Shown: piece after piece, positions 15,391 through 48,300 of the stretch
Layout of the letters: each line of letters starts with the position of its first letter
Numbering within the stretch: the stretch's first letter is position 1
Source of the DNA: Dichotomocladium elegans
Taxonomy: Eukaryota; Mucoromycota; Mucoromycetes; Mucorales; Lichtheimiaceae
Reading direction: 5' to 3'
DNA length: 64,000 nucleotides
Assembly (NCBI GenBank): GCA_025716815.1
Contig: JAIXMN010000030.1
Coordinates: 310,001 to 374,000 of the forward strand
Program-made: the position numbers and the translations under genes
Notes under the pieces: model-generated
The model's database searches: none
What the model was told of the DNA's origin: nothing
The model's input: only the letters and a program-made list of their open reading frames with translations

Positions 15391-17179
15391 TCATGCGGCT
15401 GAATGTGTATTTTCGTTGCTGGAACCTTCATGCTTCGGCGGTGTAGCATGTCGCGTGAGTTGCTCATGCCCTCCATTTGGATGGCCTTGGTGAGTAGATG
15501 TGGGTGGATGCGGCGGCTCGACCGGCGTTGGCCCTTCAGAAGGTCCTGGCTGCGCTGTGATCGGGTGTTCAGATGCTGAACGGTCCTCAGACATGGCGTC
15601 GAAAGGCACCGAAGATGAGGACGGGTCTTCTTGCTCCACAGGGTCGCAGTCGTATTTGCAGATAGGACACAGGGACGCTTTCTTTGTGAGCCAAACATCT
15701 GGATCATAAGATACCCCCAGGGGTGGGAGGGGGGGGAGAGAATCAGTCAGTTCGGATCATCTCACATGCTCTTCTAAAAACTCTGTACCTATGCAGGCGA
15801 CACAGAAGCCATGGTGACAGGGAAGTACTCGAATGTTATCAAGCTCCTTTAGTTCCTCGAGGCAAATTGCACACACTGTATTCGTTGTACTATCCACCTT
15901 CCATGTCTCGACCGGGCACATGTCGTTGAGTTTCAGAAGTGACATCTTGTGCTGCTTGTCTCGGTTCACTCCGGAAATGGCGTGGAGTCCCATGGCGCCG
16001 TCCTCCATAGCAGAATGCGCGTCTCTTTCGCTCCTGTTGGCAATGAGATTGTCAAAATTTCGGGCACACCGGTAGCAACGCAACACCAGCAGCACTGACG
16101 GGGTCAGGAGGATGCATCATCAATTGTCAAGAAAATATCGTTCCATAAGAATAGACTTACATAGAAGAAAAACACCAATCGCCGCAATGAGATACGCAAT
16201 GTAGCCCTTGTTTCCCGAGAAGATGCTCCAGGCGCCGTCGGAGTCGCCGCTGGGGGTTGGATCATTGTTATCTGCGGTCGTAATGGTGGTCTCGTGAAAG
16301 TACGTGGCAATCTGGACATATCGTTGCTTCAAGCTGCCGCTCGGTGTGCTGGTGTAGTTTCGAACCATGTCCTTCAGCGCAAGGCCGTATGCGTTCGGCA
16401 CAAAATAGACTGCAACAAAGACGTTGCCAAGAGACTGCGCGACATTATTGTCGCTCATGCGGCTCGCATCTCTCTCCTGCGGCAAGGGCGCGGCCCACGT
16501 CGGGTACGACGCGTTGGATGGCAATTCGCGGATGATCGCCACGTCTGACGAGCTTCGATTATCGTAAATCAGCACCGCACCGATGTTGAGCCGGTATGTG
16601 CTCGAGAGGGACTGTGTCGTGCTGATCTTGTCAGACCATCTCTCACACCGCCCAGACCGCTGAATCAGCGCAACCGATGGCTGCGACATCATGGACGGAC
16701 TCGTCGCTGTATTGCCATTCAGACTCTGGATATCGCCGATGGATGTGCCTGGGCAACTGTCGCCAAAATCAAGCAGAAGCCGCTTATCATCAAGTTCGCG
16801 TGAGCGCTCATTGTGGAAACAGAACAAAAGCTATGCACGTGCAGAGGTGCCTTTGCGTTTACGTTCATTTACCTGGTTATTGCCGAAAAGATCGTTATGG
16901 ATAAATACAGTTTGGAAGTCCTGGCTATAGAGCTTTATCGAAGTGTCATCGATGTACGTGGCTGTTTGATTGGATCGTCCAATGTCGTACTCCAACATCA
17001 CTTGCCTTGTTGCAACAAAAGACCGCATGTGAGAAATAAAGAACGTCAAAACCTCTTATTAAGATTCCATACCAAATGAACGGGTTGGTTCGGTTCGCTT
17101 GGGCGCGGGCGCATGAGGGTGCAAGCCATAATACGATTACGGTGAGAAATGCCCAAGAATTTCTTGGACGCTTCATCAA
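15391..17179 (-). CDS. PA-TM-RING E3 ubiquitin ligase (RNF13/GOLIATH-like)
   Basis: Five exons, 499 residues; introns 17006-17072, 16807-16872 (acceptor could instead be near 16,831), 16095-16160 and 15699-15788. The frame sum is consistent. The protein starts with a signal peptide (WAFLTVIVLWLAPSCARAQA). It continues with a lumenal protease-associated-like domain (for example LNIGAVLIYDN), then one membrane helix (GYIAYLIAAIGVFLLLLLVL, completed by splicing). A RING-H2 domain follows: CAICLEEL, LPCHHGFCVACI, then CPIC in the last exon. The tail is Pro/Ser-rich. PA-TM-RING proteins sit in endosomal or vacuolar membranes and ubiquitinate sorted cargo. It converges with the dioxygenase gene, 217 bp between stops. 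Confidence 0.87.
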
Positions 17180-18089
17180 AGGAGTTGTTTTGTATATGTG
17201 TTCCGACAGGAACCTGAAGGTATTGAGTGGAAAGAGGAAGAGTGGTCCGATCCAAGCCGGGGGAGGTTCCTTTTTTTAAAGAGAGAGGAAAAAGACGGGG
17301 CGAATGATCGAAACTCTGGTTGCTGAGCGACGTACGTGATCTCGTGATCTAGTCTATCTTTGTAATCCATGTGTTGCCCTGCCAACTGACGACCTTTTTT
17401 TTCGCTTCAGGATAGGAGATTCCAAATATAGCAATGATCTTAAAGTTTCTCCATGAAGAGAATTGCTTCGCACCTACACATTTACCCGATCCGACGGATC
17501 TTAAATATCCCGGGTAGCGTATCGGATGAAAGCAAAGGACTTAACAATAGTGGAGGAAATGACTCAGTTCCCCTCGCAGGTCTTCACTTTGAAATTGAGC
17601 ACAGCAAAGGATGAGGCGTCAGCCGACGGTTAAAACATAAGGACCTTCGCACGCACACAAATTTCGTTCACCAAACATAGTTAAAAAACGGAATGATGTT
17701 CTACGATCCTTTTCTACAGGATTTTTCCTCGCCATTCAGCCAGTTGAACTTTTTGTTTGTGGGTTATGAAAATAGTTTAGCAGTTGAGTAGCAAATATCA
17801 TTTGACATTCTTGAAAATGACTTCGCAGAGCCGATACAGGATTATCTATTAGTAAAACGCCTGTTGGCTGACTCAGTCACCCAGTCAGACTATGTTCAGT
17901 GTGGCACGGGCAGCGACTCTAGACGACCAGAGCTGTAGTCTCACAAGAAGCGCTGAAATGCCACAGAACCGTGCGCGCGGCATAAATGCGACTGATCATT
18001 GGTCATCTTTCGATCACTTGACAACTCAAGTTTTACTACATATATGGGCTACCGGTCTCAGATTACGTGCCCATTCCTTTGTACCGATC
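17180..18089. other. intergenic upstream of the Fanzor gene
   Basis: This holds the promoter of the PA-TM-RING gene and the left flank of the Fanzor locus. Around 17,869-17,890 there is a small inverted repeat (CTGACT...AGTCAG), but I could not match any sequence here to the inverse of the right flank. I therefore cannot place the left end of a transposon. No other gene is seen. Confidence 0.4.
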
Positions 18090-20226
18090 ATGGCCGACGC
18101 CAAGACCAGGGTCATCAAGACCTCTTTAAGGCCTATTGGGTGGAAGCAGCAGTATCTGGAGAACCTGGAGAACCTGGTCCGGACTACCTACTTTCTCACC
18201 ACGCACACATACCAGCTCTCGCGCTGGATCCTCCTCCACGAACTGGAACGCGACCATGACTTCAACCCCTGCGAGCTCATCGGTCAAGCCGTCGACCAAG
18301 ACTATTAGGACCCTCATAAAGACACACCTCGAAGGCTACTCGAAGGCTGCCAACGTTGAGCCTGGACAACATCCCAACATGTCCCAGGTCGCAGCCTATG
18401 TCAGTACCGAGATCATGACTGCCTACAAGATTAATGTCCAGCAGCGGTTTGGCGAATGTTTACGGCGCGTTGTCAACAGTCTGTTGAACGTGCGTCAGCG
18501 GAAGGAAGCTATACGCAAAGAAATGGTTAGCAGCGATGAACACGAGTTCCGCCAGGTCTGTGAGGAGAGAATCTGGAAGCCAGCCCGTCAAATCAAGGAG
18601 CCACTGCGACGCAGAAACCCGGATCACAGCAATCTCACACCGGAAGCCCATCTCATCCTCGCTGAACTGTCACCGATCCTTCAAGCGTACGACGACACTT
18701 ATAAGTTCGCCAAAGATGACATCTACTATGATGTGAAGAAATCTCCGGGAAAACATCTTAATGCTTTTTATCAGCTCTGCAAGTTCCTAGGGATGAGGGA
18801 GGCAAAGTCAGTCCAGTGTTTTCCTCTCTGGACTTCTTGGATTCCATGCCACATCCACATCCACACGCGAATCCTCTGCCAGCATATATCAAGGCAGGCA
18901 TCCACTAAAGACCCACCGATTGAGAAGACATGGGGGAAGGTACTTGACCTCAAGTCCAAGGCATTCAAGGATAGGCATGACAGGAGGTTCTTTGGAGCAA
19001 TACAAACAGACGGAGTGTCTGTATCAATCATACTCAAGACCCCTGAGGCAAAGAAGAATCTTAATCGCAAGCGAACCCGGACTGATACCGGTGATATCAT
19101 AACCGATGACAGTGCTCTGGAGCCCGAATGCTTACGCATTGCCGACAGCATGAGGAACAAGGGCGCTCGGAGGGATCAGAGCAAGAACGATCACTCCGCA
19201 GACTGTTCCTACATTCATGACATCCCACACGACGAGCTGCAAGAGACCGAGGGCAAGTGTCTTCTCATTGATCCAGGCCGTCGCGATCTCCATTATGGGA
19301 TGCATGAGTTGAGCACGCCCGAGCTCCCTAAAATACACCAGTATACACGCAACCAGCGCGCCCGAGAAACACAGATGGTGCGATTTCGTCAGATACGCGA
19401 CACTGGCAAGGATCGCTATGATAACAAAAACAGCATCCGCGAGGCCGAGACTAGGCTTGCACAGATATGCCACAGCATCGTCAATGCCGCCAGGTACAAG
19501 CTCTACGTCGAGTCCCGCGCAAGGGAGTGGTCACTGCTCAGCAGCTTTTACAGCAGAACCACCACAACCTACACGACATCGACCCATCCTGTACACAACA
19601 AGTACGGGCCGGCAAAGAGCGACTGGGGAAAGCGTCGAGCCCGAAAGATGCATCCGTATGTAGACCATGAGGCCCACAATCATCCTCTCCATTGGAAATT
19701 ACGCCTCTCTGCCTACATAAACCAGAAGCAGGCCGATGCTCGATTGGTGCGCACTCTACGACGAAGATTTGGAAAGGACACCGTGCTTGTCATGGGAAAC
19801 TGGTCTGCACCCATAACCCGCTTCCACGAGCCCATCCGCGGCAAGGGCTGGAGGGATATATTCAAGAGGCATGGGTTCAAAGTTTATTTGATAGACGAGT
19901 ACCGCACCTCCGTGACCTGTCCCGAGTGCTCGGACCGCCTGGAGACCTTCAAGCGTATTCCCAATCCACGACCATGGCAGCGAATAAAGCGTCCTGAGAT
20001 CAAATGCCACGGGCTTCTAAGGTGTACAAACCTAAATTGTTCGAAGTCCATGGAATTCTCTCGCTCGCGGCTTTGGAACCGAGACACAGCAGCGGTACTC
20101 AACTTTCGGCACATCCTCTTGAGCCTCCGGACCAACGGAGAGATTCCAGAGCGATTCCGACATCCCAAGGCCACTGCAGCAGCAGCAGACAATAAGAACT
20201 TCCCGGCCCTGTTATCGCAGGATTAA
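18090..20226 (+). CDS. Fanzor-type RNA-guided DNA endonuclease (TnpB/OrfB relative), with apparent frameshift
   Basis: The protein has all RuvC-nuclease landmarks of Fanzor/TnpB. RuvC-I is LLIDPGRRDLHYGM (Asp codon 19270-19272), RuvC-II is YLIDEYRTSVTCPEC (Glu codon 19897-19899), and RuvC-III is LWNRDTAAVLNFRHIL (Asp codon 20083-20085). A four-Cys zinc finger (CPEC ... CTNLNC) lies between II and III. Upstream are the conserved stretches CFPLWTSWIPCHIHI and DTRILC-like HTRILC. The 70-residue N-terminus (from ATG 18090, MADAKTRVIKTSLRP) is in one frame and meets TAG at 18306-18308. The rest (RTLIKTHLEGYSKAA onward) runs in the next frame to TAA 20224-20226. The two join smoothly near 18,300, so one base appears inserted relative to an intact gene of roughly 710 residues. 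No GT-AG intron solves this. It may be a recent break, a sequencing error or recoding. Fanzor proteins are known to cut DNA guided by a 3'-derived RNA. Confidence 0.9.
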
Positions 20227-20300
20227 GATGCTATAAGCAAGATGCTCAGGCCACTCTCCATTCGACGAATGGAGGGGAGGCACCCTAAAGGTGAGACAAC
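20227..20300 (+). ncRNA. candidate Fanzor guide-RNA (omega-RNA-like) scaffold
   Basis: Directly after the Fanzor stop are two consecutive hairpins. The first has a perfect 8-bp stem, 256-263 with 267-274 of the 20,000 block (CTCCATTC / GAATGGAG, loop GAC), extendable with C-G pairs at 20251-20252 and 20279-20280. The second is CACC/GGTG at 20281-20284 and 20290-20293 with a five-base loop. In known Fanzor and TnpB loci the guide RNA comes from the 3' end of the nuclease gene and its downstream flank. Position and structure fit; transcription is not shown. The end of the scaffold and the guide cannot be placed. Confidence 0.45.
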
Positions 20301-20777
20301 TTCGTAATTGGTTTGCCATTCTGCTAACATTCTCACGCATAAATTACCTCTATCAAAACGCAAATACTACACACTGCTGGCGTAATATTCATTACCGCGT
20401 GGCGCAAACTTGATTGCAAATAATAGTAACACGCGATACAACAATGGGCGGAGGAGGGACGATTGCAATGCACTGAAAATTTCACGTTTCTGCTCATAGC
20501 GGCAGAGTACATTGATAACTTCTGTAAAAAAAACCTTGTTTTATCAGGATCCCAGACAGATCTGTATTATCCTCTTTTGTTTCTATCATAGAAATCCATC
20601 TCATTGCGATCATTCTTGTTCATCTAGCCCCCCCCGCCAGTCTCCAAAACAGAAAGGGGGTTTCCTTTATTAGGAAATACCATGCTCTGTCTTCCTTGTG
20701 ATATGATTGGCCGAAAACCATTCCCAAAGTTAAACCAGCCAAGCACCCAGATAAAATAAACCGTTTTCTTTATCGAA
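20301..20777. other. intergenic, right flank of Fanzor and BRE1 promoter
   Basis: AT-rich sequence with C/G homopolymer runs (near 20,628). No terminal repeat matching the left flank was found by eye. If the Fanzor locus sits in an IS607-like element, its right boundary and the natural guide would lie near the start of this stretch. Confidence 0.35.
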
Positions 20778-23700
20778 ATGGCCTCCACTCCGCCTGTCGA
20801 CAAAAAGCGACGCTGGACAGAAGGCGCAGAATCCAGTGCTCCGCCACCAAATGATATCGCGACGCTCTCACGTCCACCATTAAAGAAACGCTTTACCGCC
20901 AATGGCACAGTTCCTATTATCAATCACCCACCGCCGCCAGCAGTGCCAACTACGCAGCCGGCACAGCAGCAATCGAGCTCACCTATAGCAGCCACAGCAG
21001 GTCCCTCTGCTATCAGTGGCAGCAGCAGCGCCAGTACCGGCAGCGGCACTACGAAAGGCGTCCCGGAAGCGCCAAGTGTTCCAATTTCCGCGCTGGAGGC
21101 CGATGCAAAGTTCATTGTAGGTCATAGCTCATTTTGACATTTTGGACCGCACCGTGTTGAATAATACGATTTAGGCCACGCATGAGGATCTTCCCAAGGA
21201 GGCGCTGCTTAAGAAAATGCGCGAAGCTAAAGTAAGCATACTCCTGTAATCTCGTAATCAAGCCATTTAAATATATGTCTATACATGATTTAGGGGGAAT
21301 ATTCAGAACTGGAAGGAGCGATCGCTGTGATCGACTCCAAGCGAGATGATCTTGATACGCGGTGTAGCCTAATTCGGCTGCAATGGAACCTGGTATGCAG
21401 TAATTACCTAGTCTTTAGGACTTGTGCTCATTAGACGGTTGTTGTGCGCTAGCTGCTACATGACCTTGTCATTGTTGCCAAAGCGCTTGGCCTGGACCCG
21501 CCTCCTGCAAATGGTATTGCGCGACAGCACGGGATAAACCTCACAGTGTGCTAATAAATCGATCTATTGACAGGCCTACCACGTATCGATCGCGACCTCC
21601 ACGAGACAGAGAATGAGTTGATTGACGCGAAGAACGCTGCGCGGTTAATCGCCGCCCAGGTGCTTGAGGCAATCCAAACGTGGATGAAGGAGAATGAAAC
21701 GGTACATCGTGAGTGCGGAAAGAGTCATGGTAAATATGAATCAGTCAAGGCAGTATTCTATGATGCATGTGAAGACTTACAATGAACAAGACCATCAAGA
21801 AAAGCAGAAACTGCTGACAGCTTGGATCAGTAAGGAGATCGAGGACTTGCGGTTGACATACAAAAGCAGCCACGGGCTGGTGGATGAATTAATGCGGCAA
21901 AATAAATCGATCACTGGCCATTTGGAACGAGCGATCCATGATACAAAATTAGCGGAAGAGCAGCTAGAACAAACACACAAGCTGCTAGATGAGTCGGCGG
22001 AGAAACTTGCGCAGGCGGAAAAACGATCGGATCGTCTCGACAGCAAGGCAGTTACTGCTTTTCCCGCTCCAAACCAAGATGTACGGTCCCCTTTGCATCG
22101 CGATTCATCGGTCGGCATTGCCCAGGCAACCGCAAATCAGACCAAAGAAACATCATCTCCCAGTGTAAATACATCTGCCCTTCATGGAAGCCGACTTGTG
22201 CGAGTTTTCTAATGCCATCCTACAGCCCGAATTTACAGAAAAGCAAATGGCCAAGGAATATCGCATGATTGTGGACGCTCGCAATCGCGAACTCCAGGAA
22301 CTCCGGCGCGAGAAGGAGCAGTTGATTGATGACCTTGAGCGGCTGCGTGGGAAATTTATCTCGTTAACGGACGAACAATTGATGGCTACCGAGTATTTCA
22401 AGACGCTTCAACTATCCCTGGATCATTACAAGGCGCGAGCACATTACCTTGAAGATATTAAATTACAGCTTGAAGAAGAATTAGATGATGTGAGGGCAGA
22501 GCGCCGAAAACTGGCAGATGAAGTCAAGACAGAAAAAGGAGCTCAGGAGGCAGCAATAGAGGGGGAGATGAAAAGATTAGAGAATGACCTACAACGTATC
22601 CGCAAACAACATGATGATTACCAACAAATTGCGGATACCCAAATCAGTAAGAAAACCCGCGAGGCGGAGCTGTATGAGGCTACTGTTATTGACGTGGAAA
22701 AACAAGCGGTAAGGTCCTACGATAATGAACCACAATTAAGTGACTAACGTTCCGTATTTTAGCAACGCATAGCCGATCTGGAAAAAAGATTATCTGAGTT
22801 ACGGGTATCAATACAAGACTCAACCAATACATATGCAGAGATGGCGCAACTCTATGACAAGATCCACACACAAATAAGGTAGGAAAAAGTATCTTTTTTT
22901 TAAAAAAAGGAATCGTTGCTTATATTGTTTGATCTAGCGATGCACGGATAGTGCTTGATCTACTAGAATCTAATAATCTTAAGGACTTGGCGAAGGATCC
23001 TCAGCTACAGATTGACTTGGAACGGAAGTTTGCGTTTTGGGAGCAAGTGGGAAATACTCGGGAGGAGATCCGATCTTTGATGAATCGGGTGGACGAGAGA
23101 TTCTTTGAATACAAAAAGATTGAGCTGATGATCAGCTTTTTTGTAAATGTAAGGAAGTGAAGTGATTGATGATGCAACCTCCACCTTATGTGTGTTACCA
23201 TAGAACGAATCCCAACTGATGACCCAGATCGATCGAGCAGGCGCTATCTTCACTAAGCTCGAAGAGCAAAGTTCAAAGCCGGTCTTTAACCATTCTCAGA
23301 AAAACGAACAGAAAACAAAACTCCAGGCTGAGGTAGGTGAAGATAGCGTGACATGGATGAAATAGTAATCTATTCCGAAATTTGTAGAAATCAAAGTATG
23401 CGCATACGTTTGGATCCCTCAAAACGGCAAAGGAAAAGCAATCTGCGAATGTGGCTACACTGCGCCGTACGAGCGAGCAGCAGCTTGAACATATTCGGCA
23501 ATTAGAGGATCGTGAAAAGAGCATCGAGCAGCAAGTCGTGAGTGCAGCGATTCTGAATTTAGGAGTAAGGGTTACTGATGATCAAGGGTAGTGCGAGAAA
23601 GAGAATGAAGTGCGGAAAACCGTACGCGCTGTTGAGGAGCACCGTAATACTGTTGAAGATCTACAACATCAATGTAGTGAAATCCGGATATCGTCAGAAC

Positions 23701-46733: not shown

Positions 46734-46818
46734 TACGTAGCAGGGGGCTATTCAATAGAAATCATGACGGCTTGTCTATAGGCCTTCACTGCTCAAAGGT
46801 ATCCATATAGGTGTTGTA

Positions 46819-46994
46819 CAGTGGCCGCCCGTTATAGTGATATTCGTTGTAATGATAATTCGTTATAACGATACACTTTATAAATACCAAAATTGCCAGG
46901 TAGGGCTTATTCCAATTCGTTATAGTGATAATTCGTTATATAGTGATGGGATTTCCTGGAACCGAGGGTATCACTATAACGGGCGGCCACTGTA
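46819..46994. mobile_element. 176-bp MITE with 24-bp perfect TIRs and TA target duplication
   Basis: The ends 46819-46842 and 46971-46994 are perfect inverted repeats starting CAGTGGCCGCCCGTTATAGT. The element is flanked on both sides by TA (46817-46818 and 46995-46996), the target site duplicated by Tc1/mariner/pogo-type transposases. The interior is AT-rich and contains further copies of ATTCGTTATAGTGAT-like units, but no coding frame. It is therefore a non-autonomous element that needed a transposase supplied in trans. Confidence 0.9.
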
Positions 46995-46996
46995 TT

Positions 46997-48300
46997 GAAA
47001 TTCCCTTGTATAAATCTTGGTGGGGGTCAGCCAGAACTGTATATGACTTCTCTGAAGGAACTTGTCAAGGGCGCCTTATATTGGCTCCAATCGATATGGA
47101 GGGTGGATGTCCTCTACCATATTTGCTCTCATGACCACTGCATTTAATTTCAATATATCCCATCCATTACTGCATCTTTTATCTCCTTAAAAAGTCCTCT
47201 TGTATTTTGCTGTACTAAATCATCAGGATATAGCCATTGTCCCAACCTGATTCCTCGTCGTTCCGACCTGATCATTGTCACACCTCATTGATCTATTCCA
47301 ATTCGGTGCGTACCTACTCTTGTCCGGTTCCTCTGGCTCTGCCTTGCCCCTGGTAATCATCTGACTCGGTGTATAATGTGTGATAGAATGTACTACATCA
47401 CACCCCCTCCCGTAATGTGTCGTGGCCTCCGATCCCAGTCCGTGCGTGTCTTTCGCCTGACAACGTACCTACTCTTCGGTTCCGTACTGTGCTATGTGCA
47501 TTTCCCTGGCCTTTGCCTGGGTTTGCGACATTTGCATACGATCTTTTAAGATGATCAAAGTCTCGCATATGCGCCATTCGCGCTTTGTGCAATGGGAAAT
47601 CGTTGGTTTGAAAGTCATGGACACACTGTTTCTACAATGGAAATAGATGATAAGCCTCAACGGGAGACTTGAGCATCAGCCTGAAGTAGAAATATCGTGA
47701 GTGGATCCATGCATAAGGAGCACAATGGCATTCTTTTGGCACGCGTGCATTTAGATCTCTTCGATCACATATATATATATATATATTTACCCGAGAACAT
47801 GAAGACGGCATCCAAGGATTCGAACTTGACGGAGACGAGCAAAATCATTGAAAATATAAAGATCATGGACTTGTAAAGGAAAGACACAGGGTTTTCGTCC
47901 GGTGGTGCACCACAATTTCGATGCTACTGTGCATATGTTCACTTGCAGTCAACATATTTCCGATACCGCAACCAGATACAGGACTTGTACTGGGGCAGTT
48001 TGGAAGAGCTTACTGTCGCGTTCCTCGTAGAGGCCGTGGCTTCATCGGATCCAGGTCAAATTGCTGCTGCAGATATCATCCATTCGATGTAATAGATGCA
48101 ACGTAATGATAATTTTTGGTTTGGCTGATATGTATGCCCCCATCTTTTTATTATACAACAGGGTCCCTCGACTGCTGGAAGCAAAAGGCAATAAAATCCT
48201 GGAGGGCACATATGTGCATCGATACGTGAGTAGTTTATTGGACACAGTATTTGGCGTTGAACCCCCCGTTTTCAGCATGATTAGTAATAAGCATTAAATA
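46997..48300. other. accessory DNA with retroelement-like debris
   Basis: No gene is supported. A short internal repeat, GTACCTACTCTT followed by CGGTTCC, occurs near 47,310 and again near 47,466. The minus strand at 47,398-47,592 reads a basic peptide (MHKARMAHMRDFDHLKRSY) that may be a relic of a retroelement gag or similar, but this is only a resemblance in style. A TA microsatellite lies at 47,769-47,786. Confidence 0.35.

Follow-up and report, generated by a model that had tools for sequence, protein, structure and literature searches.

Two features of the Spu-1 element frame the locus reported here: two conserved bases, CA, lie 5' of the left repeat at Fanzor and ghost loci alike, and the TAM of its nuclease, SpuFz1, is CATA, both as described by Saito 2023 (PMC10432273). 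A TA duplication at Spu-1 is treated as putative in the account of Bao and Jurka 2013 (PMC3627910). Here we describe a locus in a 64-kb stretch of DNA (the window) from Dichotomocladium elegans, a member of the Mucorales, that is very likely a decayed copy of a multi-copy, TA-bounded element, carrying Fanzor1 and no transposase, with its N-terminal frame broken and its left end kin to the inverted repeats of a Tc1/mariner-type element in this genome. We refer to the copies of this element as family A. Among the papers searched, none names both Dichotomocladium and Fanzor.

The initial annotation of this DNA recognized a gene of the Fanzor family, and that call is borne out by phmmer searches of the PDB, in which the nearest match of the window frame is Parasitella parasitica Fanzor1, PpFz1 (9cf0; E 1.5e-101), with Spizellomyces SpuFz1 (8gkh) matching at E 1.8e-49; both alignments are far beyond chance. 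Up to E 1 the PDB search yields four matches, three to Fanzor1 chains and one that is unrelated (E 0.1), and the window protein is, judged by its sequence, nearer Fanzor1 than other RuvC families. A Pfam TNB domain match in the frame is weak, at 17.8 bits where the cut-off is 26.3. The Asp, Glu and Asp codons that had been placed at 19270, 19897 and 20083 are present exactly there, and we take them to be those of RuvC-I, -II and -III; the four-Cys zinc finger was likewise correctly recognized, as all four Cys codons of the zinc ribbon were found (Table 1).

The gene is nevertheless neither the single unit (18090..20226) nor the intact one that had been annotated. The ATG at 18090 opens a frame other than that of the catalytic residues, with a stop at 18306-18308, and the 72 residues read from it match the N terminus of PpFz1 (E 7.3e-7), from which it follows that the N-terminal and catalytic pieces were once one gene. 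What separated them, and destroyed the N-terminal frame, is a 62-bp deletion. By BLAST the gap at 18282-18289 is seen against nine of the nine other copies compared; in a base-by-base alignment of seven of these nine (L033 and L038 were left out), all seven hold 62 bp between two GGTCAAGC octamers, and the window keeps one GGTCAAGC. The product read from the ATG at 18256 (656 aa, P0001) is without a PpFz1-like N terminus. Taken together, these alignments make the window copy a Fanzor1 by descent and not an intact member, its N-terminal part being incomplete, and it has probably lost the ability to yield a functional nuclease.

Table 1. Features of the window element, in window positions.
Feature	Position	Strand	Remarks
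Whole family A element	17712..20428	+	2.7 kb; limits set by loss of homology to other copies; left TTC (17712-17714) included
Candidate TAM	17712..17716	+	TTC (left flank, unless element DNA) plus TA; from left-flank counts
Left end	17715..17784	+	83% identity with the L061 inverted repeats (Tc1/mariner type)
Original N-terminal coding segment	18090..18308	+	72 aa, ends at stop, matches PpFz1 N terminus
Remaining Fanzor1 frame	18256..20226	+	656 aa if ATG 18256 is used, equal to database protein P0001
62-bp deletion junction, GGTCAAGC	18282..18289	+	shifts the frame; 8-mer present twice, around the missing stretch, in other copies
RuvC-I Asp codon	19270..19272	+	D328 of the 645-aa frame 18289-20223
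RuvC-II Glu codon	19897..19899	+	E537 of the 645-aa frame 18289-20223
Four-Cys zinc ribbon	19918..20040	+	Cys codons at 19918, 19927, 20023 and 20038
RuvC-III Asp codon	20083..20085	+	WNRD motif
Putative omegaRNA scaffold block	20195..20300	+	C-terminal codons plus 3' flank; retained in ghosts
Right end	20334..20428	+	79-84% identical in more distant elements

It had been suggested that this might be a single-copy locus outliving its transposon and lying away from repeats, and that the genome be searched for further copies. That search, once run, returned at least 18 family A copies, window included, with a common left-end region and 3' region; the locus is not single-copy, and its supposed distance from repeats is wrong in effect, as it is a multi-copy repeat itself. 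At least 157 stretches of the 39.4-Mb genome match the window protein, gene pieces and a second Fanzor1 family counted in. The searches for copies scored the best 68 of 769 and the best 40 of 87 candidates, and their counts are lower bounds. All 17 of the other family A copies carry a stop or frameshift, as established by codon comparison for 16 of them and by an in-frame stop in the N-terminal part for L004; merging of BLAST pieces may have raised the number of frameshifts in places, and the two copies for which frameshifts are the only such evidence (L012 and L021) are both also split into several frames in a protein-to-genome search.

The element has TA at both ends (17715-17716 and 20427-20428), and no inverted repeats pairing its two ends were found within 16000-22000. 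The other possibility raised by the initial annotation, a mobile element with plain ends, stands as regards mobility and comes close as regards the ends, which have no long inverted repeat but are TA-bounded and, on the left, kin to a Tc1/mariner inverted repeat. Helitron-like or IS605-like ends were weighed by eye and dropped after the Tc1/mariner relative was found. Among right ends, 43 of 46 finish in GTA, duplicates included (54 loci, with 8 low-scoring ones out), or 45 of 48 once L033 and L038 are counted in (56 loci, 8 low-scoring ones out; 40 distinct). The latter two are family A copies ~14 kb apart on contig C112, with near-identical left flanks and identical right flanks, and both have an identically placed insertion of roughly 2.1 kb close to the right end; the pair is probably a local duplication. 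As to the host genes said to flank the element, PA-TM-RING and BRE1, RING finger matches do lie on the minus strand at 15757-16095, on the PA-TM-RING side, but of three ORFs scanned on the side of BRE1, none rose above Pfam cut-offs.

A second Fanzor1 family in the same genome, family B (L041-L050; 3.9 kb in L043), has copies that are ~98-99% identical, except for L042 at 94%, with ends of the form TATAC.../...GTATA: TATA opens seven of eight left ends and closes 17 of 25 right ends (27 loci, the low-scoring L122 and L124 dropped). Once a 69-base GT-AG intron is taken out, eight of ten fetched copies give the full 709-aa protein, with 0-4 residues different from that of L043; L042 and L048 were left out of this protein count, the site sought by the script being missing in them. 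For the first exon the PpFz1 match has an E of 8.2e-120, and the intron lies inside the zinc ribbon. A decayed transposase suspected by eye upstream in family B gave no Pfam match. Elsewhere in the window, at 46813-46998, is a 186-bp stretch that has 90% identity to a segment from inside family B and contains a 16-base tandem repeat.

Substitution patterns were compared at two depths. Between the window copy and 18 family A loci (two of which are views of one), dN/dS is 0.49-0.83, and pooled over pairs of eight other family A copies it is 0.72. Relative to eight other copies, the window copy has 15 private nonsynonymous changes (1488 sites) and 5 private synonymous ones (423 sites), a rate ratio of ~0.85; these changes look neutral, and such near-neutrality suggests that the window copy drifts. 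This is largely the picture, of many degenerate copies at near-neutral dN/dS, that the initial annotation had set against its own reading. Comparison of the window with seven loci of a diverged subfamily, however, gives dN/dS values of 0.23-0.28 for six of them and 0.41 for L029, which argues that purifying selection acted on the lineage during its mobile phase.

These data bear on several ways in which the window copy might still matter to the cell. It could be imagined that this is a domesticated single-copy Fanzor retained for a host function, and both the low dN/dS between subfamilies (0.23-0.28 in six of seven loci) and the placement of the locus between host genes would agree with it, but with at least 18 copies, a broken frame and 15 to 5 private changes the idea is barely credible; indeed, copy number and the frameshift already refute it here. 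That the window copy is really intact and its 62-bp gap a fault of the assembly is highly improbable: although the gap rests on a single assembly, a clean deletion between 8-bp direct repeats is a usual biological pattern, and the other family A copies have different lesions. The 656-aa frame from ATG 18256 might instead encode a shortened yet working Fanzor, as it is open up to 20226 and retains the catalytic residues, but it is missing the segment that matches the PpFz1 N terminus and the changes in this copy are near-neutral, and we regard this as improbable. The reading we prefer remains that of a decayed copy of a mobile element, and the question then becomes how the family moved and persisted.

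In the 2.7-kb element itself, inspection of the ORF list revealed no transposase, no other ORF of note and no other recognizable gene. L061 (C112:221400-225600, the element occupying L061:116-4043) is of Tc1/mariner type, with TA at both ends, inverted repeats of 156 bp that are 95.5% identical to each other, and a transposase spread over two overlapping frames, in which DDE_3 (E 2.1e-17) and HTH domains were matched. Aligned with the left 70 bp of the window element, its repeats show 83% identity; the window right end has no such match to them. As the window element has no DDE transposase of its own and L061 has a DDE_3 gene, the former is at most a non-autonomous member of the Tc1/mariner type. 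A transposase of Tc1/mariner type probably mobilized family A in trans, L061 being at most a candidate source of it. At another locus, L062 (C61:1-8300), a retroelement that by eye looks to be of Gypsy type sits between two pieces of an L061-type Tc1/mariner element.

The left flank bears a mark of its own. A C stands at -1 of the left TA in 37 of 44 distinct ends as first aligned, and in 40 of 44 after the TA was re-registered blind to the C, compared with 18% of TA sites in the window (p 1e-25 vs 40/44). These ends belong to family A, its subfamily and the gene-less ghosts described below, and are what is left of 66 loci after removal of 17 scoring below 40 and 5 duplicates; 10 of them are without TA at register and 4 without C at -1 (L011, L020, L070 and L081). 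When the ends are split simply by best-scoring reference, the 16 assigned to family A have C at -1 in 15 cases, T (11) or A (5) at -2 in all 16, and T at -3 in 13, TWC being found in 12 of 16 relative to a background of 0.024. The 28 assigned to the ghosts and subfamily have C in 25, T at -2 in 15 and A or G at -3 in 20, and TWC in only 4, with C alone common to both groups. We consider C-TA a candidate TAM, with TWC-TA the candidate form in the window's family A.

The mark is confined to one side of the element, for among 40 distinct right ends the TA is followed by T in 20, A in 8, C in 6 and G in 6, and with G this infrequent there is no mirror-image G. Nor is it evident in the L061-type partner, in which C is at -1 in 2 of 10 distinct ends (Fisher p 1.8e-5 vs 40/44), a count made by eye from 12 rows, among which two pairs have flanks that are identical or almost so, several of the ends coming from the same elements. 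The two ends of the partner resemble each other, so that a preference for one side would be expected to appear at roughly half of its ends; tested against this proportion, 2 of 10 has p 0.03. None of 12 joined flank pairs returned an empty site, the matches being the flanks themselves and the known C112 duplicate, and it follows that the C may belong to the element and that a TA duplication is putative here too. Given CA and CATA in Spu-1 (Saito 2023), the present pattern would be a second such case, here with a relative not showing the base.

The ghosts L051-L053, known from full-length sequences of ~900-970 bp, retain the left and right ends and a ~100-bp block that overlaps both the 3' flank and the C-terminal codons of Fanzor, but have no gene. 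With both ends and the putative RNA block present and the nuclease gene absent, these are, on their sequence, ghost loci in the defined sense. Used as a genome query (best 40 of 187 candidates scored), L051 has at least 48 matches listed. In 15 of these, its own locus among them, nearly the full length is covered; some of the rest are 5' parts of the diverged Fanzor subfamily. The 3' block is a putative omegaRNA (reRNA) scaffold in which we propose hairpins CCTGT/GCAGG, CTCCATTC/GAATGGAG and CACC/GGTG. Its 106 nt fold with a z of -2.06 relative to shuffles, 5 of 200 being as good, and neither the block with 30 more bases (z -1.20) nor the right end (z 0.31) stands out in this way. In the hairpin arms, 90.4% of cells pair, vs 33-50% with the arms slid. 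Covariation is weak, with 3 pairs changed on both sides vs 0.7 expected and 13 of 500 shuffles as high; the covariation score is below the shuffle mean, and RNAalifold favours a fold different from the proposed hairpins. The block is not specially conserved among eight ghosts, with 0.82-0.85 identity over it vs 0.74-0.92 elsewhere, and at gathering scores the window has no Rfam match.

It is tempting to combine these observations in a single cycle. In an intact copy, RNA comprising the 3' block and a right-flank guide, read from the flank just after 20428, would load Fanzor1; when the transposase moves the element away, Fanzor1 would cut the empty site consisting of left flank, TA and right flank, and repair from a sister or homologous copy would restore the element. 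Through such restoration, copies beside a TAM would be retained or multiplied, the ghosts being served in trans by Fanzor1. Insertion could then be possible at TA sites generally, with the left mark arising because RNA-guided cutting of empty sites keeps or multiplies the copies that have a left TAM, a step that we put forward tentatively. The Fanzor-less, transposase-bearing relative would serve as its natural control, albeit a weak one with 10 ends, several of them from the same elements.

It is this step alone, and not the identity or history of the element, that is challenged by an alternative to which we would give close to an even chance: that the left C and T-rich flank are the end of the element or an insertion preference of the transposase, with no role for Fanzor in copy survival. 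The C at -1 is almost as constant as the TA, and the missing empty sites, the unremarkable conservation of the putative omegaRNA block in ghosts and the weakness of the partner control given its alike ends (p 0.03) all agree with this. What speaks against it is that -2 and -3 in family A are graded (T11/A5; T 13/16), looser than the first bases of the element in the same rows, and that the partner with a similar left end has C at only 2 of 10 ends; the absence of a mirror-image G after the right TA (6/40) points the same way. The mark, one-sided, found at 40 of 44 insertions, gene-bearing and gene-less alike, and not evident in the transposase-bearing relative, is an indirect sign that RNA-guided cutting aids the persistence of such elements. 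The mark predicts a TAM open to test, and the full frames of family B in the same genome suit TAM tests.

How does this locus compare with its relatives? The closest named proteins among the matches listed are Fanzor-like proteins of Coemansia (Kickxellales; P0002-P0008) at 36-45% identity, in a search that scored only candidates sharing most words; P0002 has 49% identity to the window protein in a separate alignment and tree comparison. Coemansia belongs to a different fungal phylum from D. elegans, and the tree that the initial annotation had proposed, when built, gives the placement weak support (82/94). Horizontal transfer from Coemansia was considered and set aside, as that support is too weak and the tree holds no Mucorales Fanzor besides families A and B. 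The closest solved structure is PpFz1, whose catalytic motifs and zinc ribbon align with the window frame; PpFz1 has the N-terminal segment that the window frame is without, and its TAM, given as ATN (PMC11423790), is unlike the candidate C-TA.

Among described elements, PGv-1 and PUl-4 are similar in that Fanzor1 resides in a TA-bounded element having an end akin to a Mariner-type repeat (Bao and Jurka 2013, PMC3627910). For PUl-4, as would be so for the window element, the transposase is described as supplied from elsewhere; its repeats are, however, reported as identical to those of Mariner members (PMC3627910), whereas in the window the likeness is 83% over 70 bp and restricted to the left end. 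Another close parallel is Spu-1 of Spizellomyces punctatus, which in the description available (PMC10432273) is likewise a Fanzor1-only element with no transposase between its ends, 2.1 kb long to the 2.7 kb here, and is accompanied by gene-less ghost loci with a 3' RNA block, putative in our case. In both systems conserved bases lie directly 5' of the left end, and in Spu-1 these match the TAM, although they read CA-TA there and TWC-TA (family A) or C-TA in D. elegans; Spu-1 also has 30-nt inverted repeats, whereas the left and right ends of the window element differ (PMC10432273 for Spu-1). Finally, two features set family A apart from Spu-1: none of its 18 copies is intact, and the same D. 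elegans genome contains a transposase-bearing relative with a similar left end.
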